From NCBI GenBank assembly GCA_003820645.1, contig RPOR01000015.1:1-35290 (forward strand): a stretch of 35,290 nt of DNA. The letters run 5' to 3'. Position 1 is the first letter of the stretch. Each line of letters opens with the position of its first letter. The stretch comes from Betaproteobacteria bacterium. Its GTDB lineage: Bacteria > Pseudomonadota > Gammaproteobacteria > Burkholderiales > SG8-41. Shown here piece after piece: positions 7,103-28,047 of the stretch. The notes beneath the pieces are model-generated. The model did no database searches. It was not told the DNA's origin and was given only the letters and a program-made list of their open reading frames with translations. The translations under genes were made by a program, and so were the position numbers.

Positions 7103-8236
7103 CTAATTTCGCTGAACTGCCCGGGCAGCTGGATGCGCAGCGAGGCCGGCAATGACCGCATGCGCGAGATGTTCCATCGCCGCAGTGGTGTTGGCGGGCA
7201 ACGCCAGACGCACCGCCTGCGGCAGGCGCGGATAATGACTGGTGATGGCGCGCAGGTAAGCCGGGTCGTAATGCCTGACCAGCAGGTCTTCGGTCAGCCG
7301 TTCCCAGTGGCCGGCGCGTGCCAGCGCCTGCCATTCGTCGATGACGGCATTGCCATGCAGTGCGCGCAGGCAATCGAGTTGTGTGTTGAGCAGCGCGGCA
7401 TCCTCCAGAAAATGTGCGTATTCCTCCTTGAGCAGACTGACGCGGACGGCGATCGGCGCCTCGATCACGACGCAGATGCTCTGCCACATGGCATCGATCA
7501 GCGTCGCCGGCACGCGCAGCGCGCCGATTTTCCTGCTCTCCGATTCAACGAACACCGGACGGTCGGGGGCGAGATGTTTCAATGCGTGCCAGACCCGGCT
7601 TTCGAACAACTTTTGCGCGGGCTGGGCAGCGTCGGGCAGCGTGCCGAGCACCGAACCGCGGTGCGCAGCCAGTTCCTCCAGGTCCAGCACTTGGGCGCCT
7701 TGCGCCTGCAGCGCGCGCAGCAGCCGGCTTTTGCCGGTGCCGGTCATGCCGCAGATCACCCGCCAGTCGTGGCGTGCCGGCAGCACCTGCAGTTCATCGA
7801 TGACCGTGCGCCGGTAAGCCTTGTAGCCGCCATCGAGGCGGCCGACGCGCCAGCCAATCTGGGTCAGCACCTCGGCGAGCGCGCCGCTGCGGCCGCCGCC
7901 GCGCCAGCAGTAGACCAGCGGCCGCCACTGGCGCGGCCGATCGAGCAGCCGCTCGCGCAGATGGCGTGCAATGTTGGCGCTGACCAATGCGGCGCCGATT
8001 TTCTTGGCATCGAATGACGACGCCTGTTTGTAGATGGTGCCAACCTGTGCGCGTTCCGCATTGTTCAGCACCGGCAGATTGATGGCGCCGGGAATGTGAT
8101 CTTCGGCGAACTCGTCTTCCGACCGCACGTCGATGATCTCGTCAAACTCGTCGAGTTGTGCTACGGTGCACGCGCCCGCTGAACGCCCCTTGCCGGTGTT
8201 GTGATCTTGGGCGTGGCGATCCGTTGCGTCAGGCAT
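7103..8236 (-). CDS. selU: tRNA 2-selenouridine synthase (SelU/MnmH)
   Basis: The 377-residue protein has an N-terminal rhodanese domain (about 20-135; EIIDVRSEDEFAEDHIPGA, then LVYCWRGGGRSGAL with active-site Cys110). A C-terminal P-loop domain carries Walker A GMTGTGKS at 163-170. SelU replaces the sulfur of 2-thiouridine at the wobble position of certain tRNAs with selenium, using selenophosphate made by SelD. The divergent neighbour is selD, with only 67 bp between the two start codons, an arrangement that suggests co-regulation. Length is normal and both domains look intact. Confidence 0.95.
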   Translation of the reverse strand: MPDATDRHAQDHNTGKGRSAGACTVAQLDEFDEIIDVRSEDEFAEDHIPGAINLPVLNNAERAQVGTIYKQASSFDAKKIGAALVSANIARHLRERLLDRPRQWRPLVYCWRGGGRSGALAEVLTQIGWRVGRLDGGYKAYRRTVIDELQVLPARHDWRVICGMTGTGKSRLLRALQAQGAQVLDLEELAAHRGSVLGTLPDAAQPAQKLFESRVWHALKHLAPDRPVFVESESRKIGALRVPATLIDAMWQSICVVIEAPIAVRVSLLKEEYAHFLEDAALLNTQLDCLRALHGNAVIDEWQALARAGHWERLTEDLLVRHYDPAYLRAITSHYPRLPQAVRLALPANTTAAMEHLAHAVIAGLAAHPAARAVQRN

Positions 8237-8303: not shown

Positions 8304-9362
8304 ATGAGCACATCCATCGACCCCGCTGCCCTGCGCCTGACCCAGTTTTCGCACGGCGGTGGGTGAGGCTGCAAACTGACGCCAGCGTTGCTGAGCGAGG
8401 TTTTGGCGAATATGCCGGCAGCACAGCCGTTCAGGGATCTGCTGGTGGGCACGGAGTCCAGCGATGACGCCGCGGTGTATCGCATCAACGACACACAGGC
8501 TGTCGTTGCGACAACGGATTTTTTCATGCCCATTGTCGACGATCCCTACGATTTCGGCCGCATTGCGGCAACGAATGCGATATCCGATGTGTATGCGATG
8601 GGTGGCACGCCGTTCATGGCGCTGGCGCTGCTCGGCATCCCGGTTGGCAAGATACCCATGGCGGCGGTGCAACGCATCGTCGCCGGCGGCCATGACGTGT
8701 GCGCGTCCATCGGCATCCCGATCGCCGGCGGACATTCCATCGATTCGCCGGAGCCGATCTACGGGCTTGTTGTACTCGGTCTGGTACATCCGGACAAGGT
8801 CAAGCGCAATGACCGCGCGCAGGCAGGCGATGTGCTGATCCTCGGCAAGGGGCTCGGCGTCGGCATCATGAGTGCCGCGCTGAAAAAGGGCGAATTGCGC
8901 GACAAGGCGTATCAGCAGATGCTCGAGTCGGCCACCAAACTCAATACACCGGGCGTTGCGCTCGCCGACATGGCCGCGGTCCACGCGTTGACCGACATCA
9001 CCGGTTTCGGCCTGCTGGGCCATTTGCTCGAAATCGCCCGCGGTTCGGGGCTGGTTGCCGAGATCGAGTGGGCGCAAGTGCCGGTGCTCAGGGCAGCACG
9101 GCACCTGGTCGAGCAGGGATTCGTCACCGGCGCTTCCGAGCGCAACTGGGCGAGTTACGGTGCGCAGGTCACGCTGCCTGCGGGCGATACGACGGCGCAG
9201 CGCCGGCTGCTGACTGACCCGCAGACCAGCGGCGGCCTGCTGGTCGCGTGTGCGGCTGATGCCGCCCCTGCTGTCCTGGACATCTTCAGGGCGCAGGGGT
9301 TTGCCGAGGCCGCCGTCATCGGTCGTCTGCGCAGCGGTGCACCCGGGGTCCGGGTAAAATAG
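8304..9362 (+). CDS. selD: Selenide, water dikinase SelD with in-frame UGA (selenocysteine)
   Basis: SelD makes selenophosphate from selenide and ATP, feeding both SelU and selenocysteine synthesis. Without readthrough the ORF starts only at 8388 and lacks the catalytic N-terminus. In the same frame, ATG at 8304 gives MSTSIDPAALRLTQFSHGGG, then TGA at 8364-8366, then GCKLTPALLSEVL, which aligns with the canonical SelD start (LTQ.SHG.GCGCK in E. coli). The TGA is codon 21 and occupies the position of the active-site Cys/Sec. The rest is typical: DDAAVY, ATTDFFMPIVDDPYDFGRIAA, AGGHSIDSPEP, LTDITGFGLLGHL, DPQTSGGLL. The full product is 352 residues, of normal length. Translation past the UGA needs SelA, SelB and tRNA-Sec, which are not in this window. 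Confidence 0.93.
8364..8408 (+). promoter_or_regulatory. UGA selenocysteine codon and candidate bacterial SECIS hairpin
   Basis: The TGA at 8364-8366 is followed, inside the coding sequence, by a foldable element. An outer stem CGCCA (8380-8384) pairs with TGGCG (8404-8408). An inner stem CGTT (8386-8389) pairs with AGCG (8394-8397, one G-U pair). The apical loop GCTG starts with G at 8390, 23 nt after the UGA. Bacterial SECIS elements have a small apical loop with a G in its first two positions about 16-37 nt past the UGA, so this fits. I folded it by hand, and the internal loop is asymmetric. Confidence 0.72.
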
Positions 9363-10684: not shown

Positions 10685-12531
10685 GCCTGGGCGGCGAGAT
10701 CGCTCTTGCGCTGCGGCTGCTGGCACGGGACTGGCGCGCCGGCGAATTGACGCTGGTGGCCATCGCCGTGGTGGTGGCTGTCGCCAGTGTCACCACGGTG
10801 GGGTTTTTTGCCGATCGTGTGAACCAGGCGCTCAGCCGCCAGGCGAACCAGCTGCTGGGCGCCGATCTGGTGGTGTCTGCCGACCGGCCGCTCGATGCAC
10901 AGTTCGCCGCGGAAGCGGAGCGGCGCGGGCTGCGGGTCACGCGCATGCTGCGCTTCCCGAGCATGGCCGCGGCCAACGAACAGAACGTGCTGGCCGAGAT
11001 CAAGGTGGTCAGTGCGGGATACCCGCAGCGTGGCGAGTTGCGTATTGCCGACACGCTTTACGGACCCGATCGCCGGGCTGCTGCGATTCCCGCGGCGGGC
11101 ACGGTATGGGTCGACGACAAGCTCTACACTCGTCTGCAACTGCAGCCGGGCGATGCGGTGGAGGTCGGGCAAAGCCGTTTTCCGGTCGGCGCGATCATCA
11201 CGCAGGAACCCGACAGCGCGGTCGGCTTCATCAATGCCGGGCCACGGGTCATGCTCAATGAGGCCGACCTCGCCGCGACCGGACTGGTGCAGGTCGGCAG
11301 CCGCATCCGTTATCGCGTGCAGGTTGCCGGTGCGGCCGGTGCCGTCGATGCCTATCGGGATTGGGTTGCTGCGCGGCTGACCCCGGGCCAGCGCGTGGAA
11401 AGCATCCAGGACGCGCGTCCTGAAATCCGCTCGGCACTGCAGCGCGCCGAACAGTTCCTTAGCCTGGCGGCACTGCTCAGCGTGGTGCTCGCAGCAGTGG
11501 CGATCGCGCTGGCGGCACGGCGTTTCCTGCAGCGTCACCTCGATGCCTGTGCGATGATGCGTTGCCATGGGGCGTCGCAGGGCAAGGTAGTCAGGCTTTA
11601 TGTGCTGCAATTCATTGCGCTGGGTTGTCTCGCCAGCCTCGCCGGTTGCGCAGCCGGGCTGCTTGCACAGCATGTATTGGCACTGTGGCTGGGCAGTCTG
11701 GTCACGGTCGAACTGCCCGGTGCCGGGCCGCGCCCGGCGGTGCACGGCTTTGTCACGGGACTGGCCTTGTTACTGGGATTCGCGCTGCCGCCGCTGCTCG
11801 CGCTGGGGCGCGTGTCGACGCTGCGGGTGCTGCGGCGTGACATTGGCGCTCCGGGGGGCATGGGCTTGCTCGGCTATGCGCTGGGCGCCACGGTCATCGG
11901 TGCATTGGTCATCTGGAAAGCCGGCGATCTGCGCCTGGGCAGCCTGGTGTTTGGCGGATTTGCGCTGGCGATGCTGGTCGCGGGTGTGACGGCCTGGGGC
12001 GTGATCGTTGCGGTATCGCGGCTGCGCTCGGTCGGCGTGTCCTGGCGTTTCGGCATTGCCAATCTGCGCCGGCGGCGTTTTGCCAGCGTGCTGCAGGTCG
12101 TGGCGCTGGGCATCGGCGTGATGGCGCTGCTGACGCTGACCATCATCCGGGGCGAACTGCTGCAATTATGGAAGGCCAGTCTGCCGCCGGATGCGCCCAA
12201 TCGCTTCATTGTCAATATCCAGCAGGAGCAGATACCGGCGCTGAACAGGTTTTTCGCCGAACAACGCATCACCATGCCCGAGGTGTATCCGATGGTGCGG
12301 GCACGCCTGACCCGGATCAACGAGCGGCCGGTCGCGTCGGCCGACTATGCCGATGATCGCGCGCGCCGGCTGGTGGACCGGGAGTTCAATCTGTCCTGGG
12401 CGACGCGCCTGCAGCGCGACAATCTGCTGGTTGCCGGCCGCTGGTGGGAGAGCAGCCGCAGCGCAGCGACCAGTTTTCGATGGAGGACGGCATCGCACGT
12501 GCGCTCGACATCAAGCTGGGCGATGTGCTGA
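10681..12531 (+). CDS. ybbP: ABC transporter permease YbbP, N-terminal part (frameshifted)
   Basis: This reading frame covers roughly the first 590 real residues of an FtsX-type permease. It has an N-terminal TM segment (LTLVAIAVVVAVASVTTVGFF), a periplasmic domain with the MacB-like start (GADLVVSADRPLD), and several TM segments (LSLAALLSVVLAAVAIALAA; LGCLASLAGCAAGLLAQHVL; VLQVVALGIGVMALLTL). After AGRWW the frame breaks, and the last ~27 residues (ESSRSAATSFRW onward) are out-of-frame translation. The remainder continues in the next frame from about 12447. Inserting one G into the GGG at 12446-12448 would restore a single ~832-residue protein, close to the family length. It is either a recent pseudogene or a sequencing error. 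Confidence 0.85.
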   Translation: MSLGGEIALALRLLARDWRAGELTLVAIAVVVAVASVTTVGFFADRVNQALSRQANQLLGADLVVSADRPLDAQFAAEAERRGLRVTRMLRFPSMAAANEQNVLAEIKVVSAGYPQRGELRIADTLYGPDRRAAAIPAAGTVWVDDKLYTRLQLQPGDAVEVGQSRFPVGAIITQEPDSAVGFINAGPRVMLNEADLAATGLVQVGSRIRYRVQVAGAAGAVDAYRDWVAARLTPGQRVESIQDARPEIRSALQRAEQFLSLAALLSVVLAAVAIALAARRFLQRHLDACAMMRCHGASQGKVVRLYVLQFIALGCLASLAGCAAGLLAQHVLALWLGSLVTVELPGAGPRPAVHGFVTGLALLLGFALPPLLALGRVSTLRVLRRDIGAPGGMGLLGYALGATVIGALVIWKAGDLRLGSLVFGGFALAMLVAGVTAWGVIVAVSRLRSVGVSWRFGIANLRRRRFASVLQVVALGIGVMALLTLTIIRGELLQLWKASLPPDAPNRFIVNIQQEQIPALNRFFAEQRITMPEVYPMVRARLTRINERPVASADYADDRARRLVDREFNLSWATRLQRDNLLVAGRWWESSRSAATSFRWRTASHVRSTSSWAMC

Positions 12532-13178
12532 CGTTCGACGCTGCGGGTAACCGTTTCTCGGCAGAAGTCACCAGTCTGCGCAAAGTCGACTGGGATTCAT
12601 TCAATGTCAATTTCTTCCTGGTCGCGCCGCCCGGTCTGCTCGAACAGCAGCCGGTAAGTTATGTCACCAGCTTCTACCTGCCGCCGGGAAACGTGGCGCT
12701 GCTCAACGCCCTGGTCAAGCAGTTCCCGAATTTCCTGCTGATCGATGTGGCGCAGGTGCTCGCGCAGGTGCAGAAAATGATCGCGCAGGTTTCACGGGCG
12801 GTGCAGTTCGTGTTCCTGTTCACGCTGCTGGCCGGGCTGGTGGTGCTGTACGCGGCGATTGCCAGCACCCAGGATGAGCGCCTCTACCAGGCGACGATCA
12901 TGCGCACCCTCGGCGCCAGTCGCACACAGCTGGCGCGGGCGAACCTCGCCGAGTTTGCGCTGATCGGTGCGCTGGCCGGGCTGATCGCTGCAGCCGGCGC
13001 CAATGCCCTCGGTTATGCAATCGCCCAGCGCATCATCAACGTCGGCTATACCTTCAGTGGGGCCGTATGGGTGATCGGTATTGCCTGCAGCATCGCTGGC
13101 ATTGCGGTGGCCGGTCATCTCGGCACGCGGCAGGTGTTGCGGGTGTCGCCGTTGCGCGTGCTGCGCCAGTTGGCCTAG
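12444..13178 (+). CDS. ybbP: ABC transporter permease YbbP, C-terminal part (frameshifted)
   Basis: This frame holds the C-terminal third of the permease: FSMEDGIARALDIKLGDVLTFDAAG, the periplasmic segment (VDWDSFNVNFFLVAPPG), and the final FtsX domain with TM segments (VQFVFLFTLLAGLVVLYAAIAS; FALIGALAGLIAAAGANALG; GAVWVIGIACSIAGIAVAGH). It ends with the typical PLRVLRQL. The apparent GTG start at 12444 is an artefact of the frame change and has no ribosome-binding site, so this is not an independent gene. Whether the split halves make a working transporter is doubtful unless the frameshift is a sequencing error. Confidence 0.83.
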   Translation: MGEQPQRSDQFSMEDGIARALDIKLGDVLTFDAAGNRFSAEVTSLRKVDWDSFNVNFFLVAPPGLLEQQPVSYVTSFYLPPGNVALLNALVKQFPNFLLIDVAQVLAQVQKMIAQVSRAVQFVFLFTLLAGLVVLYAAIASTQDERLYQATIMRTLGASRTQLARANLAEFALIGALAGLIAAAGANALGYAIAQRIINVGYTFSGAVWVIGIACSIAGIAVAGHLGTRQVLRVSPLRVLRQLA

Positions 13179-16375: not shown

Positions 16376-16954
16376 TCAGGGCGTCCCGAGCTGCTGTGCC
16401 CGCAATTCCTCGGCAGTGTTGATGTTGCTGAATGCGGACTCATCGGGAAAGTCGACTTCGGCAACCTTCAATCTTGCATACCAGGCGTCGATTTTGCGCC
16501 CCCCTGCCACGAGATAGTCGGCGAGCCCGGCGGCGACCGACTTGCGGCACAGACAGAATACCGGGTGCGACTGGTCGCCGGTGCGGGCGACCGCGAGGTC
16601 GGCCTGCGCACGGTCCAGCGCAGCCCGGAGTTTCTCGATCAGGTCTTCGGGCAGGAACGGCGAATCGCAGGGCACGGTAGCCACCAGCGGATGGGTGGCT
16701 TCGCTGAGGCCGCGATGCAGTCCCGCCAGCGGGCCGACGAAACCGCCAATCGCATCCGGAATCACGCGGTGGCCGAACTGGGCGTAGCGATCAACGTTTT
16801 GATTGGCATTGATCAGGATTTCGTCGACCTGCGGTGCCAGGCGCTCGATGACCCAGGCCACCATCGGCCGTCCGCGCAGCAGCTGCAGTCCCTTGTCGAC
16901 GTGGCCCATGCGCCGGCCCTGGCCGCCGGCGAGCACGACGCCGGTGATTTTCAT
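16376..16954 (-). CDS. mobA: Molybdenum cofactor guanylyltransferase MobA
   Basis: The 192-residue nucleotidyltransferase has the signature VVLAGGQGRRMGHVDKGLQ at its N-terminus, GPLAGLHRGL, and the Mg-binding VPCDSPFLPEDL. MobA attaches GMP to Mo-molybdopterin, giving the guanine dinucleotide form used by DMSO-reductase-family enzymes, including the formate dehydrogenase encoded 6 kb away. Its ATG overlaps the fdhD stop codon by four bases, placing it last in the moaA-fdhD-mobA operon. The short C-terminal region (SAFSNINTAEEL) is also typical. Confidence 0.96.
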   Translation of the reverse strand: MKITGVVLAGGQGRRMGHVDKGLQLLRGRPMVAWVIERLAPQVDEILINANQNVDRYAQFGHRVIPDAIGGFVGPLAGLHRGLSEATHPLVATVPCDSPFLPEDLIEKLRAALDRAQADLAVARTGDQSHPVFCLCRKSVAAGLADYLVAGGRKIDAWYARLKVAEVDFPDESAFSNINTAEELRAQQLGTP

Positions 16955-17811
16955 GCCGAGGCGAGCATGGTGGGGGCAAGCTGCTTGACGAAACGGTGAC
17001 GCCCCGTAAACAGCAGGTAGTGCTTGTTGACGGCGCGACCGAGCATGGTGATGCCGGTGCGCTGCGCGATGTCATGGCCCATCTGGGTGAGGCCCGAGCG
17101 CGACACCAGGAACGGAATCTGCATCTGCGCGGCCTTGATGACCATTTCGGAGGTCAGGCGGCCGGTGGTGTAGAAAATCTTGTCGGAACCGTCCATACCG
17201 TTCAGCCACATCAGTCCGGCAATGGCATCCACGGCATTGTGCCGGCCGACGTCTTCGACAAAATCGAGAATTTCCGCACGCTCGCCATCGAGCGTCGCCA
17301 GTGCACAGCCATGCACGGCGCCTGCGGATTTGTAGATGGTCTCATGCCGGCGTACCGCATCAAGCAGGCTGTAGAGGCCGCTTTCGGTCAGGCGGACGTC
17401 ATCGCGCAGTTTGATCTGGTCGATTTCGTCCATCAAGTCGCCAAATACCGTGCCCTGGCCGCAACCGGTGGTTACCGTGCGTTTTTTCATGCGCTGGTCG
17501 AGATTCTTGATGGCCCGGCGGGTGGTCACCGCGGCGGATGCCGTTTCCCAGTCGACCTGCACCTCGGCAATGGCGTCGATCGAGGAGATCAGGCGCTGGT
17601 TGCGCAGATAACCGATGACCAGCGCCTCCGGCGCCTGGCCGAGCGTCATCAGCGTCACGACCTCGCGCTTGTCGACATAAATGGTCAGCGGATGTTCACC
17701 GGCAATCGGCGTGGCGAGCATTTCACCGCGTTCGTTCAGCGCGTCGACTTCCACCGTCAGCGTGCGGGAGGCGGTGCTGATTTTGGTTTTGGCGGAAGAG
17801 GGGATGGCCAC
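16951..17811 (-). CDS. fdhD: Formate dehydrogenase accessory sulfurtransferase FdhD
   Basis: The 286-residue protein has FdhD hallmarks: EHPLTIYVD, LGQAPEALVIGYL, HGCALAT, FVEDVGRHNAVDAIAG, IFYTTGRLTSEMVIKAAQM, LVSRSGLT. FdhD passes sulfur from a cysteine desulfurase to the molybdenum cofactor, which formate dehydrogenase needs for activity. E. coli FdhD has a CxxC (TGCGVCG) loop. Here the loop reads TTGCGQGTVF, keeping only the first cysteine. The gene sits 3 nt after moaA and overlaps mobA by 4 nt. Confidence 0.96.
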   Translation of the reverse strand: MAIPSSAKTKISTASRTLTVEVDALNERGEMLATPIAGEHPLTIYVDKREVVTLMTLGQAPEALVIGYLRNQRLISSIDAIAEVQVDWETASAAVTTRRAIKNLDQRMKKRTVTTGCGQGTVFGDLMDEIDQIKLRDDVRLTESGLYSLLDAVRRHETIYKSAGAVHGCALATLDGERAEILDFVEDVGRHNAVDAIAGLMWLNGMDGSDKIFYTTGRLTSEMVIKAAQMQIPFLVSRSGLTQMGHDIAQRTGITMLGRAVNKHYLLFTGRHRFVKQLAPTMLASA

Positions 17812-17814
17812 GCG

Positions 17815-18849
17815 TCAGCCGCCGATATAGGACATTTCGATTTTCTGCAGCGGCGCAGTGTGCGCGCCGCGGATTTCCGAATAACGGTCCTCGCGTCGCG
17901 ACCAGACGTTGCAGATTGCCGCACGGAGGTCGTCATCGCTGGCGCCGCTACGCAACAGTGCGCGCAGATCATGCCCGGTTGTCGCGAACAGGCAGGTATA
18001 GAGCTGACCTTCGGTGGAGATGCGCGCGCGGGTACAGTCGCGGCAGAACGCCTGGGTGACCGAAGCAATCACGCCGATTTCGCCGGAGCCGTCGCGGTAG
18101 CGCCAGCGTGCTGCGACTTCGCCAGTGTAATTGGGAGCGGCCGGCTCCAGCGGCATGGCGCGGGCAATGCGCTCGACGATTTCGCGCGCACTGACCACGT
18201 CATCCATGCGCCAGCCGTTGGTGGCGCCGACATCCATGTATTCGATAAAGCGCAGGATATGCCCGCGTTCGCGGAAGCATCGTGCCATCGGCACGATGCT
18301 GTCTTCATTGAGACCGCGCTTCACCACCATGTTGATCTTGATCGGGGAGAAACCGGCGGCCGCCGCGGCGTCGATCCCCTCGAGTACCCTGCTCACCGGG
18401 AAGTCGACATCGTTCATCGCCTTGAACACGGCATCATCGAGGGAGTCGAGGCTGACGGTGATGCGCTGCAATCCCGCGGCGCGCAGCGCGGCAGCCTTCT
18501 TTGCCAACAGCGAGCCGTTGGTCGTCAGCGTCAGATCGAGGCCGGGAATCGCGGCCAGCATCCGGATCAGCTGCTCGATATTGCGGCGTACCAAGGGTTC
18601 GCCGCCGGTGATGCGGATTTTTTCGATGCCGTGATGCCTGAATACCCGTGCCAGCCGCACAATCTCCTCGAAGCTCAGCAGCGCGGACCGTTCAAGGAAC
18701 TGATAATCGCTGCCGAATTTTTCCTTGGGCATGCAATAGACGCAGCGGAAATTGCAGCGGTCGGTGACGGAAATACGCAGGTCGCGCAGTGGTCGTCCGC
18801 GACGGTCACGGCTGACGGCGCTTTGCAGCAGGGAATTCGGAGGGTGCAT
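17815..18849 (-). CDS. moaA: GTP 3',8-cyclase MoaA
   Basis: This 344-residue radical SAM enzyme catalyses the first step of molybdopterin synthesis together with MoaC. The N-terminal [4Fe-4S] motif is CNFRCVYC (Cys32, 36, 39). A second cluster motif near the C-terminus is [18 protein letters not shown]. The protein ends in the conserved Gly-Gly (SYIGG). [10 protein letters not shown] and TTNGSLL are also typical. The start at 18849 (MHPPNSLL) is preferred, because the longer reading to 18915 would run into the divergent DUF3305 gene and adds nonconserved residues. It is the first gene of the moaA-fdhD-mobA operon, back-to-back with the formate dehydrogenase operon. Confidence 0.96.
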
Positions 18850-18905
18850 TCTATGGGTCCCGAGGAGGCGTTGATTATGGCAAAGTAGAATCCCGTGGCG
18901 CAAGG

Positions 18906-19484
18906 ATGACATCACTTGCGAATCAGGTATTTAACCGGGACATCGTGTTGAATCCGCCGGCGTGGTGGCGCAGAATGCGTGCCATGGTTACCGCAAGTCA
19001 GGTGAGTCCGCAGCGCTGGACTGCCGCCGTCATCATGGAGCGGTCGGCGGTGGTCAGTCGCTGGGCCAGCGAGAAGTGGGAAGCCAAGGGTGTGGTGCCC
19101 GATATTGCGCCGGGGTCGACGCCCCGTGTGCTGCTGGATCGGCCGGAATTGACCCGGGTGCTGCATTCCGGTCTGCAGATCGTGCTGCGGCGCGACGAGG
19201 CGGAAGGGCATTACATGAACATCACCTCGCCCGAGCCCAAGGTGTTTGTGTTGTGGCGCATGGTCGAGAGCATGGCCGTACCGCAATTGCTGACCGTGAG
19301 TTATCACGAGGGGGCGCGCTGGATGGATAGTGGCGACAACGTCGATGGTGTGCCGCTGCCGGCGGAACTGCTGCCCTGGATCGCGGTTTTCTGCGAAAAG
19401 CATTACCACCCGGAACCGCGCAAGAAGACCAGGTATGCGACGAGCAGGGACAAAGGGCGCATGGGTAACTGGCGGCCGGATTAA
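18906..19484 (+). CDS. DUF3305 domain protein, formate dehydrogenase operon
   Basis: The product is up to 192 residues. The conserved DUF3305 part starts near [25 protein letters not shown] and runs through [29 protein letters not shown] and [17 protein letters not shown]. It has no signal peptide or membrane segment, and the function is unknown. It occurs next to DUF3306 and formate dehydrogenase genes in many proteobacteria, so a maturation or assembly role is plausible. The start is uncertain: 18906 (only a weak AAGG), 18975 and 18984 are all in frame, and the conserved domain begins after the last of these. It is divergent from moaA, with about 56 bp between starts if 18906 is used. Confidence 0.85.
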
Positions 19485-22313: not shown

Positions 22314-22976
22314 GTGACTGCGACAATAGAAAAAATGATCACAGCGACGGTGAGCATTAACCAGCCGCAAGGGGTATTACCGGTCGCTGATGCGGAGGAG
22401 AGCGGTGCGCGGTCTGCGCTGTATGCCGTGCTCAGCCACCTGTTTATTGCCGCGCCCACTCAACCATTGCTGCAGCAGATCGCCGGATCGCGCCAGGCGA
22501 TCGCCGATGACCAGTCGGCGCTCGCGCTCGCCTGGAACCGCTTGTGTGACGCCGCACGCGATGCCGATGCCGCAACCGTGTGCCATGAATTCGACGAGGT
22601 TTTCGTGACTACCGGACGGCCGCCGGTTTCGCTGTATGCATCCAGCTACATGGCGGGACGCCAGCGCGGCCAACTGCTGGCCGAATTGCGCGAAGACCTG
22701 CGGCAGATGGGTTTTGAGCGCTCGGCCGACAGCAACGAATACGAGGACCATCTTTCGGCGCTGTGCGACGTCATGCGCGGCCTGATTGTCGATGAAGCAG
22801 CCGCGGCCGATGCATTTGCGGCGCAGCAGGTCTTTTTCAGGAATTATTTTGCCCCCTGGTATGAGCGCGTATGTACGGCGATCGGTTCCGCCGAGCAGGC
22901 GGCGTTTTACCGTCCGGTGGCGAAGTTCGCCCATGCTTTTTTTGCCAACGAGTCGGAATATTTCGAGTTAGCCTGA
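22314..22976 (+). CDS. TorD/DmsD-family redox enzyme maturation chaperone
   Basis: The 220-residue all-helical protein has TorD-like features: ALYAVLSHLFIAAPTQPLL, CHEFDEVFVTTGRPPVSLYAS, EYEDHLSALCDVMRGLI, FFRNYFAPWYERVC. Such chaperones bind the Tat signal of molybdoenzymes, hold the apoenzyme for cofactor insertion and proofread export. The client is presumably the Tat-dependent alpha subunit encoded two genes downstream. The start is GTG at 22314 or ATG at 22335; neither has a strong ribosome-binding site. The 81-nt gap upstream holds no recognisable gene. Confidence 0.88.
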   Translation: MTATIEKMITATVSINQPQGVLPVADAEESGARSALYAVLSHLFIAAPTQPLLQQIAGSRQAIADDQSALALAWNRLCDAARDADAATVCHEFDEVFVTTGRPPVSLYASSYMAGRQRGQLLAELREDLRQMGFERSADSNEYEDHLSALCDVMRGLIVDEAAAADAFAAQQVFFRNYFAPWYERVCTAIGSAEQAAFYRPVAKFAHAFFANESEYFELA

Positions 22977-22990
22977 AGGAGGTCATGACC

Positions 22991-23179
22991 ATGAGCACCA
23001 AGATGAGTCGCAGAAAATTCATTGCCGCCGCCGGTGTGGGCGGAGCCGCTGCAGCCGCCGTAGTGGCGACCAGGCTCGATGGCACCGCCGGTGCCGAGAT
23101 CAGGCAGACGGCCACCCAGGGCAAGGGTTATCAGCTGACCGCGCACGTGCGCCGTTACTACGAAACCACCAAGGTTTGA
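22991..23179 (+). CDS. Small Tat-signal protein of the formate dehydrogenase region
   Basis: This 62-residue protein is nearly half twin-arginine signal (MSRRKFIAAAGVGGAAAAA). The short mature tail ends in QGKGYQLTAHVRRYYETTKV. It matches the known small 'formate dehydrogenase region Tat target' type found just upstream of catalytic subunits. The start at 22991 is preferred over 22985 because a perfect AAGGAGGT sits 7-8 nt before it but almost touches 22985. The function is unknown. It might be a periplasmic small subunit or an export helper for the alpha subunit, whose gene follows after 10 nt. Confidence 0.88.
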   Translation: MSTKMSRRKFIAAAGVGGAAAAAVVATRLDGTAGAEIRQTATQGKGYQLTAHVRRYYETTKV

Positions 23180-23189
23180 GGAGGGTGCC

Positions 23190-26114
23190 ATGCTGCTGAC
23201 CAGGAAGTCGACCCGGACCGGAGTTGTGCCAAACCGTCTCGCGCGCAGTGCTTCGGCGTTTCTCGGCAATACCATTGACCGTCGCGCGTTTCTGAAACGC
23301 AGCGGCCTTGCTGCCGGCGGTGCCGCGGCGCTGTCGCAATTGCCGTTCGCGATGATGCGCAAGGCCGAGGCTGCCGACAAGCCGGCCGGCGGCAACATCG
23401 AAGTCAAACGCACGGTATGCACGCACTGCTCGGTGGGCTGCGCCGTCGATGCCGTGGTCCAGAACGGCGTATGGATCCGCCAGGAACCAGTGTTTGATTC
23501 GCCGATCAACCTCGGCGCGCATTGTGCCAAGGGTGCTTCGATCCGCGAACACGGCATGCACGAGATTTCGCATCGTTTGCGCACGCCGATGAAATTGAAC
23601 GGCGGCAAATGGGAAAAGATATCCTGGGACCAGGCCCTGACCGAAGTCAGCCAGAAGCTGATGGCGATCAAAAAGGAATCGGGTCCGGATGCCACGTTCT
23701 GGGTGGGATCATCCAAGCACAACAACGAGCAGTCCTACCTGTTCCGCAAGTTCGTGTCGTTTTTCGGCACCAACAACATGGATCACCAGGCGCGCATCTG
23801 CCATTCCACCACGGTCGCCGGCGTGGCGAATACCTGGGGTTATGGTGCGATGACCAACTCCTACAACGACGAACAGAATTCGAAGTGCATCCTGTTCTTC
23901 GGCAGCAACGCGGCGGAAGCGCATCCGGTGTCGATGCTGCATACGCTGCACGCCAAGGAAAACGGCGCCAAGGTCATCGTCGTGGATCCGCGTTTCACCC
24001 GGACCGCGGCCAAGGCCGATACCTACTACCGCATCCGTTCCGGCACTGACGTGGCATTCCTGATGGGCATGCTGCACCACATTTTCAAGAACGGCTGGGA
24101 AGACAAGGATTACATCAAGGCTCGTGTCTATGGCATGGACAAGGTGAAGGAAGAGGCTGCGAAGTGGACACCGGACAAGGTCGAGGAAGTGACCGGCATG
24201 AAGGAAGCCGAAGTCCGCGACGTTGCCGAACAAATGGCCAAGAACAAGCCCAGTACCATCGTCTGGGCGATGGGCCAGACCCAGCACACCAACGGCAATG
24301 CCATCGTGCGCGCCTCCTGCATCCTGCAGCTGGCGCTGGGCAATGTCGGCAAGTCCGGCGGCGGCTGCAACATCTATCGCGGCCATGACAACGTGCAGGG
24401 CGCCACCGATGTCGGCCCGAATCCGGACTCGCTGCCGGGCTATTACGGGCTGCTTCCCGGCTCCTGGGCGCATTTTGCGCGGGTCTGGGGCGTCGAACTC
24501 GACTGGATCAAGAAGCAGTTCGCGACGCCGGCGATGATGGAAAAACCCGGCATCACGGTTTCGCGCTGGATCGACGCGGTACTGGAGAAGAACGAGTTGA
24601 TCGACCAGGACAGCAATCTGAAGGCCGTCGTATTCTGGGGGCACGCGCCGAACAGCCAGTCGCGGGGCAAGGAAATGGTCGAGGCCATGAAAAAGCTCGA
24701 CCTGCTGGTGGTGGTTGATCCTTATCCCTCGGCGACTGCGGCAATGGCGGCGATGGTGCGCAAGGATGGTGTTTATCTGCTGCCGGCAGCGACGCAGCTG
24801 GAATGCGCGGGTTCGGCCACGGCGTCGAACCGCTCGATCCAGTGGCGGGAGAAGGTGATCGAGCCGATGTTCGAATCGCGCACCGACCACATGATCATGT
24901 ACCAGCTGGCGCAAAAATTCGGCTTCGCCAAGGAGTTCACCGCGAAGATCAAGTTGAGCAAGGGCAAGGGCGGCATGGACGAGCCGGACATGGAAGACAC
25001 GCTGCGCGAAATCAATCGCGGCGTGTGGACCATCGGTTACACCGGCCAGTCTCCGGAGCGCCTGCAGGCGCACATGCGCAACATGCATGTGTTCGACATC
25101 AAGACCCTGCGCGCCAAGGGCGGCAAGGATGCCAAGACCGGTTATGTGCTCGACGGCGATTATTTCGGCCTGCCGTGGCCGTGCTACGGGAACCCGGCGC
25201 TGAAGCATCCCGGCTCGCCGAACCTCTACCAGACCGACCGTCACATCATGGATGGCGGCGGTAATTTCCGCGCCAACTTCGGCGTGGAAAAGGACGGTGT
25301 CAGCCTGCTGGCGGAAGACGGTTCGTACTCGAAAGGTGCTGATATCACCACCGGGTATCCCGAGCTCGATCACGTGCTGCTGAAAAAACTGGGCTGGTGG
25401 GATGAACTGACCGAGGACGAGAAGAAACTCGCCGACGGGAAGAACTGGAAAACCGATCTGTCCGGCGGGCAGATCCGCGTGTTCATGAAAAACCACGGCT
25501 GCCATCCGTTTGGCAACGCCAAGGCCCGCGCAGTGGTGTGGAATTTCCCCGACGCCGTACCGCTGCACCGCGAGCCGCTGTACAGCCCGCGTGCCGACCT
25601 CGTCGACAAGTATCCAACGCATGACGACCAGAAGAACCGCTGGCGGCTGCCGGTGCTGTTCAAGACGGTGCAGCAGGCGAACAAGGATGCCGGCAAGCAG
25701 TATCCGCTGATCATGACCAGCGGGCGGCTGACAGAATACGAGGGCGGCGGCGACGAAACCCGGTCGAATCCCTGGCTGGCGGAATTGCAGCAGGAGATGT
25801 TCGTCGAGATCAACCCGAAGGATGCCAACGACCGGGGCGTACGTAACAACGAATACGTGTGGGTGGAGTCGCCGACGAAGGCTAAGCTCAAGGTCAAAAC
25901 GCTGGTTACCGAGCGTGTGGCGTCGGGTACGGTGTTCCTGCCGTTCCACTTTGCCGGCTGGTGGATGGGCGAGGACATGAAAAAGTATTACCCGGAAGGT
26001 GCTGCCCCGATCGTGCGCGGCGAGGCGGTCAACACGGCGACTACATATGGCTACGACATTGTGACCATGATGCAGGAAACCAAGACCACGTTGTGCCAGG
26101 TGTCCAAGGCATAA
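23190..26114 (+). CDS. fdhA: Formate dehydrogenase, catalytic alpha subunit (Mo/W-bisMGD, Tat-exported)
   Basis: The product is 974 residues. An unusually long n-region precedes the Tat motif DRRAFLKRSG (Arg31-Arg32). An N-terminal [4Fe-4S] site uses Cys77, 80, 84 and 112 (CTHCSVGC ... GAHCAKG). The DMSO-reductase-family catalytic core includes DHQARICHSTTVAG, where Cys204 occupies the metal-ligand position that is selenocysteine in E. coli FdnG/FdoG. The adjacent His is kept. Other family stretches are GSNAAEAHPVS, VVDPRFTRTAAKAD, YRIRSGTDVAFLMG and the C-terminal MoPterin domain (GRLTEYEGGGDETRSNP). It oxidises formate to CO2 in the periplasm, passing electrons to the beta subunit. A GAGGAGGG ribosome-binding site precedes the ATG. 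The neighbours encode its chaperone, beta and gamma subunits. Confidence 0.96.
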   Translation: MLLTRKSTRTGVVPNRLARSASAFLGNTIDRRAFLKRSGLAAGGAAALSQLPFAMMRKAEAADKPAGGNIEVKRTVCTHCSVGCAVDAVVQNGVWIRQEPVFDSPINLGAHCAKGASIREHGMHEISHRLRTPMKLNGGKWEKISWDQALTEVSQKLMAIKKESGPDATFWVGSSKHNNEQSYLFRKFVSFFGTNNMDHQARICHSTTVAGVANTWGYGAMTNSYNDEQNSKCILFFGSNAAEAHPVSMLHTLHAKENGAKVIVVDPRFTRTAAKADTYYRIRSGTDVAFLMGMLHHIFKNGWEDKDYIKARVYGMDKVKEEAAKWTPDKVEEVTGMKEAEVRDVAEQMAKNKPSTIVWAMGQTQHTNGNAIVRASCILQLALGNVGKSGGGCNIYRGHDNVQGATDVGPNPDSLPGYYGLLPGSWAHFARVWGVELDWIKKQFATPAMMEKPGITVSRWIDAVLEKNELIDQDSNLKAVVFWGHAPNSQSRGKEMVEAMKKLDLLVVVDPYPSATAAMAAMVRKDGVYLLPAATQLECAGSATASNRSIQWREKVIEPMFESRTDHMIMYQLAQKFGFAKEFTAKIKLSKGKGGMDEPDMEDTLREINRGVWTIGYTGQSPERLQAHMRNMHVFDIKTLRAKGGKDAKTGYVLDGDYFGLPWPCYGNPALKHPGSPNLYQTDRHIMDGGGNFRANFGVEKDGVSLLAEDGSYSKGADITTGYPELDHVLLKKLGWWDELTEDEKKLADGKNWKTDLSGGQIRVFMKNHGCHPFGNAKARAVVWNFPDAVPLHREPLYSPRADLVDKYPTHDDQKNRWRLPVLFKTVQQANKDAGKQYPLIMTSGRLTEYEGGGDETRSNPWLAELQQEMFVEINPKDANDRGVRNNEYVWVESPTKAKLKVKTLVTERVASGTVFLPFHFAGWWMGEDMKKYYPEGAAPIVRGEAVNTATTYGYDIVTMMQETKTTLCQVSKA

Positions 26115-26141
26115 CGACCCGATACCCGCGAGGAGAACAAT

Positions 26142-26765
26142 ATGGCCAGAATGAAATTCCTGTGTGACGCCGAGCGCTGCATCGAGTGCAACGGTTGCGT
26201 AACCGCCTGCAAGCAGGAGCACGAGGTGCCTTGGGGCGTGAACCGCCGGCGGGTGGTGACCCTGAACGACGGCCTGCCCGGCGAGAAATCGATCTCGGTC
26301 GCCTGCATGCACTGCTCGGATGCGCCGTGTATGGCGGTGTGCCCGGTCGACTGTTTCTATAAAACCGCCGAAGGCGTGGTGCTGCACGACAAGGACCTGT
26401 GCATCGGCTGCGGCTATTGTTTTTACGCCTGCCCGTTCGGCGCGCCGCAGTTCCCGCAGGACGGCGCATTTGGCCTGCGCGGCAAGATGGACAAGTGCAC
26501 GTTTTGCGCGGGCGGCCCCGAGCCGGACAACTCTGCGGCGGAATTCAAGAAATACGGCCGCAACCGGCTCGCCGAAGGCAAGCTGCCGGCCTGTGCCGAG
26601 ATGTGCTCGACCAAGGCCCTGCTGGGCGGTGATGGCGACGTCGTCGCCGACATTTACCGCAACCGCGTGCTGAAGCGCGGCAAAGGTTCGGAGGTATGGG
26701 GTTGGGGCACCGCTTACGGCAAGCCGGAGAAAGGCGCGGCACCGCCTGCCGGAGCGAAATCATGA
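26142..26765 (+). CDS. fdhB: Formate dehydrogenase beta subunit, four [4Fe-4S] clusters
   Basis: The 207-residue ferredoxin-like subunit has four Cys sets: CIECNGCVTACKQEH (from Cys13), CMHCSDAPCMAVCPVDC, CIGCGYCFYACPFG, and the split CTFC...CAEMCSTKA. It relays electrons from the alpha subunit to the gamma-subunit hemes. It lacks the C-terminal membrane helix of E. coli FdnH (about 290 residues), so it is of the shorter Fdh3B-like type. It has no own signal peptide and must be exported with the Tat-borne alpha subunit. The stop overlaps the next gene's ATG by four bases. Confidence 0.95.
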   Translation: MARMKFLCDAERCIECNGCVTACKQEHEVPWGVNRRRVVTLNDGLPGEKSISVACMHCSDAPCMAVCPVDCFYKTAEGVVLHDKDLCIGCGYCFYACPFGAPQFPQDGAFGLRGKMDKCTFCAGGPEPDNSAAEFKKYGRNRLAEGKLPACAEMCSTKALLGGDGDVVADIYRNRVLKRGKGSEVWGWGTAYGKPEKGAAPPAGAKS

Positions 26766-26986
26766 AACGTGCGCTGATTGCAGGTCTGGCAGCGTGCCTG
26801 GTAATTGTGACCGGTTGCGGCGAGCAATCGCAGGTCACGGTGTACGAGCAGGGTCAGTATCAGGGCAAGCCTGATACCCGTGCATGGGACAACGCCCAGT
26901 TCAAGAACGACCGGGCAGCCTGGGAAAACGCAATCAAGTCGCGCAACAGCGGGCAGAACGAATACTCGCGCGTCGCCGGCAACTAG
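26762..26986 (+). CDS. Small predicted lipoprotein in formate dehydrogenase operon
   Basis: The 74-residue product has a lipoprotein signal (MKRALIAGLAACLVIVTGC) with lipobox V-T-G-C. A short charged mature part follows (about 55 residues; QVTVYEQGQYQGKPDTRAWD, WENAIKSRNSGQNEYSR). It starts inside the fdhB stop (ATGA), so it is translationally coupled between the beta and gamma subunits. The function is unknown and no domain is recognised. Location suggests an anchor or assembly role at the outer face of the inner membrane. Confidence 0.82.
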   Translation: MKRALIAGLAACLVIVTGCGEQSQVTVYEQGQYQGKPDTRAWDNAQFKNDRAAWENAIKSRNSGQNEYSRVAGN

Positions 26987-27000
26987 AAAAGGGGCAAGCC

Positions 27001-28047
27001 ATGCAGGTTTTTCTGAGGCAATGGCTGTTGGTAATGCTGATGGCGGTGCTGGGCGCAGTAGCGTTTGTACCGGCATATGCAGCCGATACCAGTTCAGCGC
27101 AAGAGCAGGCGGCACGTCAGCAGACGCAGCCAGGCAACAATGCGCCGGTGTGGCGTGATGTCCGTGGCGGCGATAATCCGTATCAGACCACCCAGGTCCG
27201 TGGCGTCGAGTCCGCAGTGCTGGTGCAGCCCGCAGGCGAGACCTGGCGGCAGGTGCGTAACGGGCTGGTTACCGTCTATGGCGGCTGGCTGATCGTGGTG
27301 ATCATGGCCATGATCGGCGCGTTCTACTGGTGGAAGGGTCCCATCAAGCTGCACGAGCAGCCGACCGGCCGCCGTCTGCTGCGCTTCGGCGCCTGGGACC
27401 GGATGGTGCACTGGGGTGCCGCCATCAGTTTCATACTGCTGGCGGCGACCGGCATCATCATCCTGTTCGGTAAGCATATATTCCTGCCGGTCATCGGCTA
27501 CACGCTGTTCGGCTGGCTCGCGACACTGGCCAAGAATGTGCACAACTTCGTCGGGCCGGTGTTTGCATTTTGCACGATCCTGATGTTCGTCACGTTCGTC
27601 AAAGACAACTTTCCCAAGGCGCATGATCTGAAATGGCTTGCCAAGTTCGGCGGGCTGGTCTCGGGCGAGCACGTGCCGTCCGATCGCTTCAATGCCGCGG
27701 AAAAGGTCTGGTTCTGGCTGGGGGTGACGCTGCTTGGTATCGTCGTCAGCGTCACCGGGTTCATACTGAATTTCCCGAACTTCGAGCAGGGACGCGCGCT
27801 GATGCAGCAGGCTAACGTGATACACGCGACTGCCGCGGTGCTGTTCCTGACCTTCGCGTTGAGTCATATCTACCTCGGCACCGTCGGCGTGGAAGGCGCC
27901 TACCAGGCCATGCGCACCGGCTATGTCGACGAGGTCTGGGCCAAGGAGCATCACGAGTTCTGGTACCAGGACGTTATTGCCGGCAAAGGGGGTGGCGCAG
28001 CCAGTCCTGCTGCCGCGTCTGCGCTCAAGGAGGGGTGGAAAACATGA
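27001..28047 (+). CDS. fdhC: Formate dehydrogenase gamma subunit, membrane cytochrome b
   Basis: The 348-residue product has a cleavable-looking signal (MQVFLRQWLLVMLMAVLGAV...AYA) and a hydrophilic periplasmic stretch (about 28-90). TM helices follow at roughly 94-112, 138-160, 184-205, 236-258 and 273-295. Candidate heme-b histidines lie near the membrane faces (MVHWGAA, VHNFVGP, VIHATAA, LSHIYLG). This matches the FdnI/FdoI-type subunit, which passes electrons from the beta subunit to quinone. The ATG at 27001 follows an AAAAGGGG site; the longer frame from 26884 overlaps the lipoprotein gene and would bury the signal peptide. It overlaps the next small gene by four bases. Confidence 0.95.
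   Translation: MQVFLRQWLLVMLMAVLGAVAFVPAYAADTSSAQEQAARQQTQPGNNAPVWRDVRGGDNPYQTTQVRGVESAVLVQPAGETWRQVRNGLVTVYGGWLIVVIMAMIGAFYWWKGPIKLHEQPTGRRLLRFGAWDRMVHWGAAISFILLAATGIIILFGKHIFLPVIGYTLFGWLATLAKNVHNFVGPVFAFCTILMFVTFVKDNFPKAHDLKWLAKFGGLVSGEHVPSDRFNAAEKVWFWLGVTLLGIVVSVTGFILNFPNFEQGRALMQQANVIHATAAVLFLTFALSHIYLGTVGVEGAYQAMRTGYVDEVWAKEHHEFWYQDVIAGKGGGAASPAAASALKEGWKT

Follow-up and report, generated by a model that had tools for sequence, protein, structure and literature searches.

The window, as we call the whole stretch of 35,290 nucleotides that was analysed, contains a selD gene (8304-9362, + strand) that almost certainly encodes a selenocysteine-containing selenophosphate synthetase (selenide,water dikinase), its in-frame UGA at 8364-8366 being decoded as Sec21 by the predicted selenocysteine machinery of the source genome together with a hairpin downstream of the codon.

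Read directly, the selD frame starts with the ATG at 8304, ends with the TAG at 9360-9362 and is otherwise open past the TGA, which forms codon 21 and is predicted to encode the catalytic residue as selenocysteine. With the TGA translated as Sec the product has 352 aa and the N-terminus MSTSIDPAALRLTQFSHGGG-U-GCKLT. When Cys was placed at residue 21, the protein matched NF002098 with 514.8 bits (cut-off 299) and TIGR00476 with 430.8 bits (cut-off 125), the match being full-length. In an alignment of residues 9-342 to PDB 3u0o, which we take to be the SelD of E. coli, position 21 is matched with the first of the Cys residues in SHGAGCGCK. The N-terminal loop SHGGG-U-GCK has the Cys/Sec and a Lys three residues on, as in the motif of 3u0o, and this Lys24 (8373-8375, + strand), presumably the catalytic Lys of SelD, lies in the alignment opposite the Lys of GCGCK. 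A Met was found at the same place as ATG 8304 in loci L019, L107 and L108. The frame from ATG 8304, the alignment to 3u0o and the SelD models thus agree with the first-pass annotation, according to which the frame, once extended upstream to give a complete SelD, has a TGA where the catalytic Cys or Sec is expected.

The open reading frame reported by a code-11 caller is shorter, with a TTG start and 324 aa (8388-9362, + strand), and its start codon lies inside the downstream hairpin. It is plausible that automated annotation truncates the gene at this point, as had been claimed earlier, since the mechanical call starts there; the full length of this easily truncated selD is corrected to 8304-9362. 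The same call is what speaks for a real stop at the TGA, with selD either translated from TTG 8388 without the catalytic loop or a pseudogene. Such a reading can be given very little credence: the remainder of the frame has no stop, the protein sequence on either side of the TGA (the residues immediately before it and the GCK after it) is conserved in the relatives with TGA, and the same TGA is kept in proteins that are 65-85% identical.

At least 591 SelD loci were found in the genome_contigs collection; in the best-matching 80 of these, the equivalent of codon 21 was TGA in five and TGC or TGT in 75. Together with the source locus, the 81 loci included six with TGA, 68 with TGC and seven with TGT; the exchange of U and C at residue 21, for which the first-pass annotation had proposed an alignment of homologues, was therefore observed. 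In the order, 173 of 200 genomes had a SelD match, and a TGA within the match was listed for 14 of them, the source genome included (seven genomes that gave no match, along with some of the weak matches, do not appear in this listing). The 14 genomes belong to three families, with TGA in all the listed matches of each: the source family f1 (5/5), f6 (4/4) and f13 (5/5). A sample of 299 genomes of the phylum gave 74 SelD matches at 1e-40, and TGA was listed only for the source genome and for G210 and G305, which have genomes near 2 Mb, both belong to a single further family within the class and are taken for Pasteurellaceae by inference. Altogether 19 SelD genes with TGA, the source gene included, were collected from the order or from records titled Betaproteobacteria or untitled; their proteins are 65-100% identical to that of the window.

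Because the same TGA is present in independent SelD loci of two collections, it is not a product of chance or of sequencing error. The source assembly is a draft (3.25 Mb in 229 contigs, 91.7% complete), which leaves some room for an erroneous TGA in place of TGC or TGT. The probability of such an error is nevertheless practically negligible, as 18 further sequences of the two collections have the TGA as well and as the pattern downstream of it is present in the Sec genes and absent from the Cys genes.

Genes for selenocysteine synthesis and insertion were found on one other contig of the source genome, C3: selA (48117-49460; 570.8 bits, cut-off 267.9), selB (49673-51556; 419.2 bits, cut-off 242.25) and the tRNA-Sec (54973-55063; 75.9 bits, cut-off 47), which ARAGORN called SeC with anticodon tca. 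The earlier claim that the organism makes selenocysteine, against which an absence of selA, selB and selC was to count, is upheld by these genes. ARAGORN found no tRNA in the window itself. With a threshold of E ≤ 1e-60 and a score over the cut-off, selB was detected in 13 of the 14 genomes of the order with TGA-SelD and in 54 of the 200 genomes overall; the one TGA-SelD genome without a match at E ≤ 1e-60, G144, is 84% complete. Two genomes, G100 and G181, have two selB matches each over the cut-off. Directly 3' of selB in locus L018, an ORF at 11705-12613 resembles a thioredoxin-reductase-like flavoprotein with the motif KCADCDGP (named by eye).

An 18-nt hairpin lies within codons +5 to +11 after the TGA (8380-8397, + strand). 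It consists of a 7-bp stem (CGCCAGC / GCUG-A-GCG) with one bulged A and of the loop GUU at 8387-8389, at a distance of 20 nt from the UGA. Bacterial SECIS elements are hairpins 3' of the UGA with a short loop, a G in the first two bases and approximately 16-37 nt between UGA and loop, and the structure after the selD UGA fits this model. When the 22-nt stretch was folded alone, all 21 Sec sequences produced a hairpin whose loop had the same position, and the mean folding energy was -8.5 kcal/mol for the Sec sequences (n = 21) and -4.0 kcal/mol for the Cys sequences (n = 60). The stem model (7 bp, bulged A, 3-nt loop) was paired in 98.3% of 119 cells from 17 distinct betaproteobacterial sequences, and RNAalifold predicted the same hairpin structure.

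The conservation of this region was found at the nucleotide level. The roughly 20 bases after the UGA are nearly identical in the Sec genes despite proteins differing by up to 35% from that of the window. Codon identity, calculated among pairs with the same residue, was 0.904 over codons +5 to +11 in the Sec genes (n = 19), a value reached by none of the 283 seven-codon comparison segments beyond codon +20. The corresponding value in the Cys genes was 0.392 (n = 55, the 60 Cys rows of the tree minus five gammaproteobacterial ones), which was reached by 232 of 251 segments. The protein follows the same division: of 28 Sec rows, counted with duplicates, 25 have Thr at residue 25 (the others have one Pro and two Ser), as against none of 105 Cys rows, which have Ala (96) or Ser (9), so the RNA element apparently dictates the amino acid.

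The stability of the window's own stretch was not exceptional when compared to shuffled sequences (z = -1.48, 18 of 200 shuffles as good), nor was that of a longer stretch around the hairpin (z = -0.80, 37 of 200). Covariation was limited to one compensatory pair in one of the 17 distinct sequences, with 62 of 500 shuffles scoring as high; it is weak because the hairpin hardly varies. No Rfam family reached its gathering threshold in the window, and the SECIS pattern had no matches in viral_contigs. The segment 8380-8397 is a predicted bacterial SECIS element, constrained at the nucleotide level in Sec but not in Cys genes.

According to the mechanism proposed here, SelB carrying Sec-tRNA-Sec would bind the hairpin at 8380-8397 and decode the UGA at 8364-8366 as Sec, and Sec21 would be the catalytic residue of SelD. 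The selenophosphate produced would be used by SelA for the Sec-tRNA-Sec of SelD itself and of further predicted selenoproteins (at least three and probably four), and also by MnmH for 2-selenouridine in tRNA. As selenophosphate feeds the synthesis of Sec-tRNA-Sec, the synthesis of SelD would depend on its own product, and the autocatalytic feedback suggested in the first-pass annotation follows from the pathway as predicted. This raises the question of how an enzyme that activates selenium, and requires selenium for its own synthesis, can get started in the first place. Near-cognate read-through of UGA exists generally, and it could set the cycle going in the absence of Sec. That the UGA is regularly read as another amino acid, by a reassigned code or by near-cognate insertion of Trp or Cys, is on the other hand highly improbable: TGA is also an ordinary stop that ends 14 of the 25 chosen genes of the window, dedicated selA, selB and tRNA-Sec are present, and the hairpin is conserved.

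The second consumer of selenophosphate is encoded next to selD and divergently from it. This gene, mnmH (also selU or ybbB; 7103-8236, - strand), encodes a tRNA 2-selenouridine synthase (NF008752, 498.4 bits, cut-off 266). The divergent arrangement of mnmH and Sec-selD was found in 16 of 18 relatives' loci, the distance being within approximately half a kilobase in 15 of them and about 2.1 kb in L173; of the two exceptions, L174 stops close to the gene, and no mnmH was found in L020. No selA or selB match was found within the same 18 loci, some of which are short.

Four families besides SelD were searched for further selenoproteins, three of them over five genomes of f1 and the formate dehydrogenase alpha subunit (FDH-alpha) over the source genome, and the resulting count is a minimum. 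Four further genes of the source genome have a single in-frame TGA within a redox-type motif (L230-L233). The first is peroxiredoxin-like (C122:9646-10053; FTDTU), with the TGA on a Cys of the peroxiredoxin 2ywn. The second is TlpA/ResA-like (C118:257-601; FWASWUSSC), with the TGA on a Cys of 3kcm, and the third (C97:4531-4896) has a UxxC motif, YRGDWURYC. The fourth is AhpD-like (C3:19918-20166; HGCHYU), with the TGA on a Cys of Bmp8. The Pfam assignments were over the cut-off for all four, AhpC-TSA for the first three and CMD for the last, and the NCBIfam matches, to peroxiredoxin-, ResA/TlpA- and peroxidase-related models, were all below their cut-offs. The best structure alignment of the C97 gene was weak (E = 1e-6), with a Thr opposite the TGA and the relative's Cys opposite the second residue of UxxC; the case for this gene as a selenoprotein is therefore weaker. 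Since the TGA falls on a redox Cys in three genes besides selD and within a UxxC motif in one more, Sec decoding is predicted to be general in the source genome.

Corresponding genes were present in the four relatives of f1. The FTxTU/FTKxU, WUxxC and HGCxYU kinds of TGA gene were found in all four and an FTGGU kind in three, and no gene of the C97 kind with TGA was listed in any of the four. These results include 18 of the 19 listed matches, G131:C225 having been left out of the inspection. In L234, L237, L241 and L244 (genomes G046, G090, G131 and G169) the FTxxU and WUxxC genes, both of the AhpC/TSA family, are adjacent on the same strand; in the source genome the two genes are on separate contigs, C122 and C118, each close to a contig end. 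SelW-like proteins (PF10262) were detected in none of the five f1 genomes. A scan of all frames with TGA read through, comparing the loci of the source and its relatives, was swamped by shadow frames of real genes.

No TGA was found in the 17 FDH-alpha matches of the source genome, the incompleteness of which leaves room for a missed Sec-FDH. This result suggested that SelD might be the sole selenoprotein of the genome, a possibility ruled out by the other TGA genes. The window contains a cluster of the FDH3 type at 22871-28047 (a TAT-type small protein and the alpha, beta and gamma subunits), and also fdhD with ORFs that by eye resemble moaA and mobA (16376-18915). A Sec-dependent form of this formate dehydrogenase was ruled out, as it has Cys (QARICHSTTV) where the relative L201 has TGA (QARI*HAPTV). 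An FDH match with one TGA (at 1e-30) was listed in five of the 14 TGA-SelD genomes (G005, G090, G144, G169 and G181).

The trees included 81 SelD proteins: the 21 Sec proteins, the 40 Cys proteins most like that of the window, eight picked from other groups and one in five of the Cys proteins that were left, the selection being made from 125 after eight duplicates had been dropped. All positions through the 20th residue beyond the site were excluded from the alignment. In the LG+G4 tree the 19 Sec proteins formed two clades, one of 12 (f1 and f6) and one of seven (f13), within the Cys proteins of Betaproteobacteria, with altogether three changes of state when the Pasteurellaceae-like pair is included. 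Holding the 19 proteins as one clade was not rejected (p-AU = 0.308). The mixture-model tree placed them in one clade, labelled 7/60 (bootstrap/SH-aLRT, after re-rooting), with two changes in all; a history of losses only needs ten. The near-identical hairpin in f13 and in f1 and f6 suggests either one origin or an exchange between these lineages.

Because the Sec proteins are nested among Cys proteins of Betaproteobacteria, the betaproteobacterial Sec-SelD most likely arose from a Cys-SelD through a change of TGC or TGT to TGA and the creation of the hairpin. Horizontal transfer from a Sec-SelD lineage outside the tree, instead of conversion in place, is considered unlikely. Horizontal transfer of selenium traits has been reported (PMC5029168), Sec-SelD from outside the Proteobacteria is absent from the tree, and SelD does move between lineages, since three Cys proteins from outside the order are placed among the betaproteobacterial ones in the LG tree (L218 and L220 from the same phylum, L219 from the same class). 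Against transfer, the 19 Sec proteins lie among betaproteobacterial Cys-SelD and on both trees far from the two Pasteurellaceae-like Sec proteins, and the 299 genomes of the phylum gave no listed TGA-SelD beyond those already mentioned. A further sequence, L096, titled as a Rickettsia typhi MAG, groups with Polynucleobacter and Comamonadaceae proteins and is probably a mislabelled bin.

On balance we favour conversion in a wider form, as a second Cys-to-Sec event in SelD, this time in Betaproteobacteria, with a new SECIS element present today in no fewer than three families, and with the Sec trait kept by SelD and small redox selenoproteins so that Sec-FDH would be dispensable. If this is true, the self-dependent SelD had a working Cys ancestor, and misincorporation of Cys could restart the cycle after selenium starvation. 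The conversion would also provide a natural comparison of before and after, between Cys- and Sec-SelD that are approximately 65-70% identical, and make visible the cost of installing a SECIS element, with Ala or Ser replaced by Thr at residue 25 and the codons frozen.

Sec-SelD as such is already known, being a long-known and common selenoprotein. FdhA and SelD have been described as the most widespread bacterial selenoproteins (Zhang 2006, PMC1794560; Peng 2016, PMC5029168), and Sec was found in 19% of the SelD detected in reference genomes (Mariotti 2015, PMC4561486). The text of Zhang 2006 (PMC1794560) states that no Cys-to-Sec events were seen in FdhA or SelD, and proposes that in organisms lacking FdhA the Sec trait is maintained by SelD. 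Mariotti 2015 describes a conversion of SelD from Cys to Sec in Pasteurellales, called there the first clearly documented one (PMC4561486), and as far as the texts consulted go, this direction is documented only in that order. The main texts of PMC4561486, of the 2025 deep-Sep paper (PMC12013277) and of two reviews (2022, PMC9312934; 2026, PMC13188914) contain no mention of "Betaproteobacteria". The literature search found no betaproteobacterial conversion to Sec-SelD, although supplements may list such genes.

Like the window gene, the Sec-selD of Pasteurellales has a UGA in frame at this position, followed closely by a hairpin. The Pasteurellaceae-like proteins L211 and L212 (so taken from their class, genome size and TGA) are, however, of a different lineage, 48% and 47% identical to the window SelD, and the hairpin of this pair differs in sequence, with a longer loop and another stem register. 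Betaproteobacterial Cys-SelD and the SelD of 3u0o belong to the same family and share the motif, the nearest Cys relatives being approximately 69-70% identical to the window protein; they differ in having TGC or TGT for TGA, no codon constraint and a stretch that on average folds less well. The organisms with Sec-SelD and the selenouridine trait described in PMC1794560 are like the source in having selD beside mnmH/ybbB and no Sec-FDH found. For Betaproteobacteria the same survey gave one selenoprotein family with ten proteins, FdhA being their only selenoprotein (PMC1794560). The source genome differs from these in having SelD and at least three other predicted selenoproteins with no Sec-FDH found, so that for this lineage of Betaproteobacteria a broader range of selenoproteins is predicted than the class was credited with in 2006.
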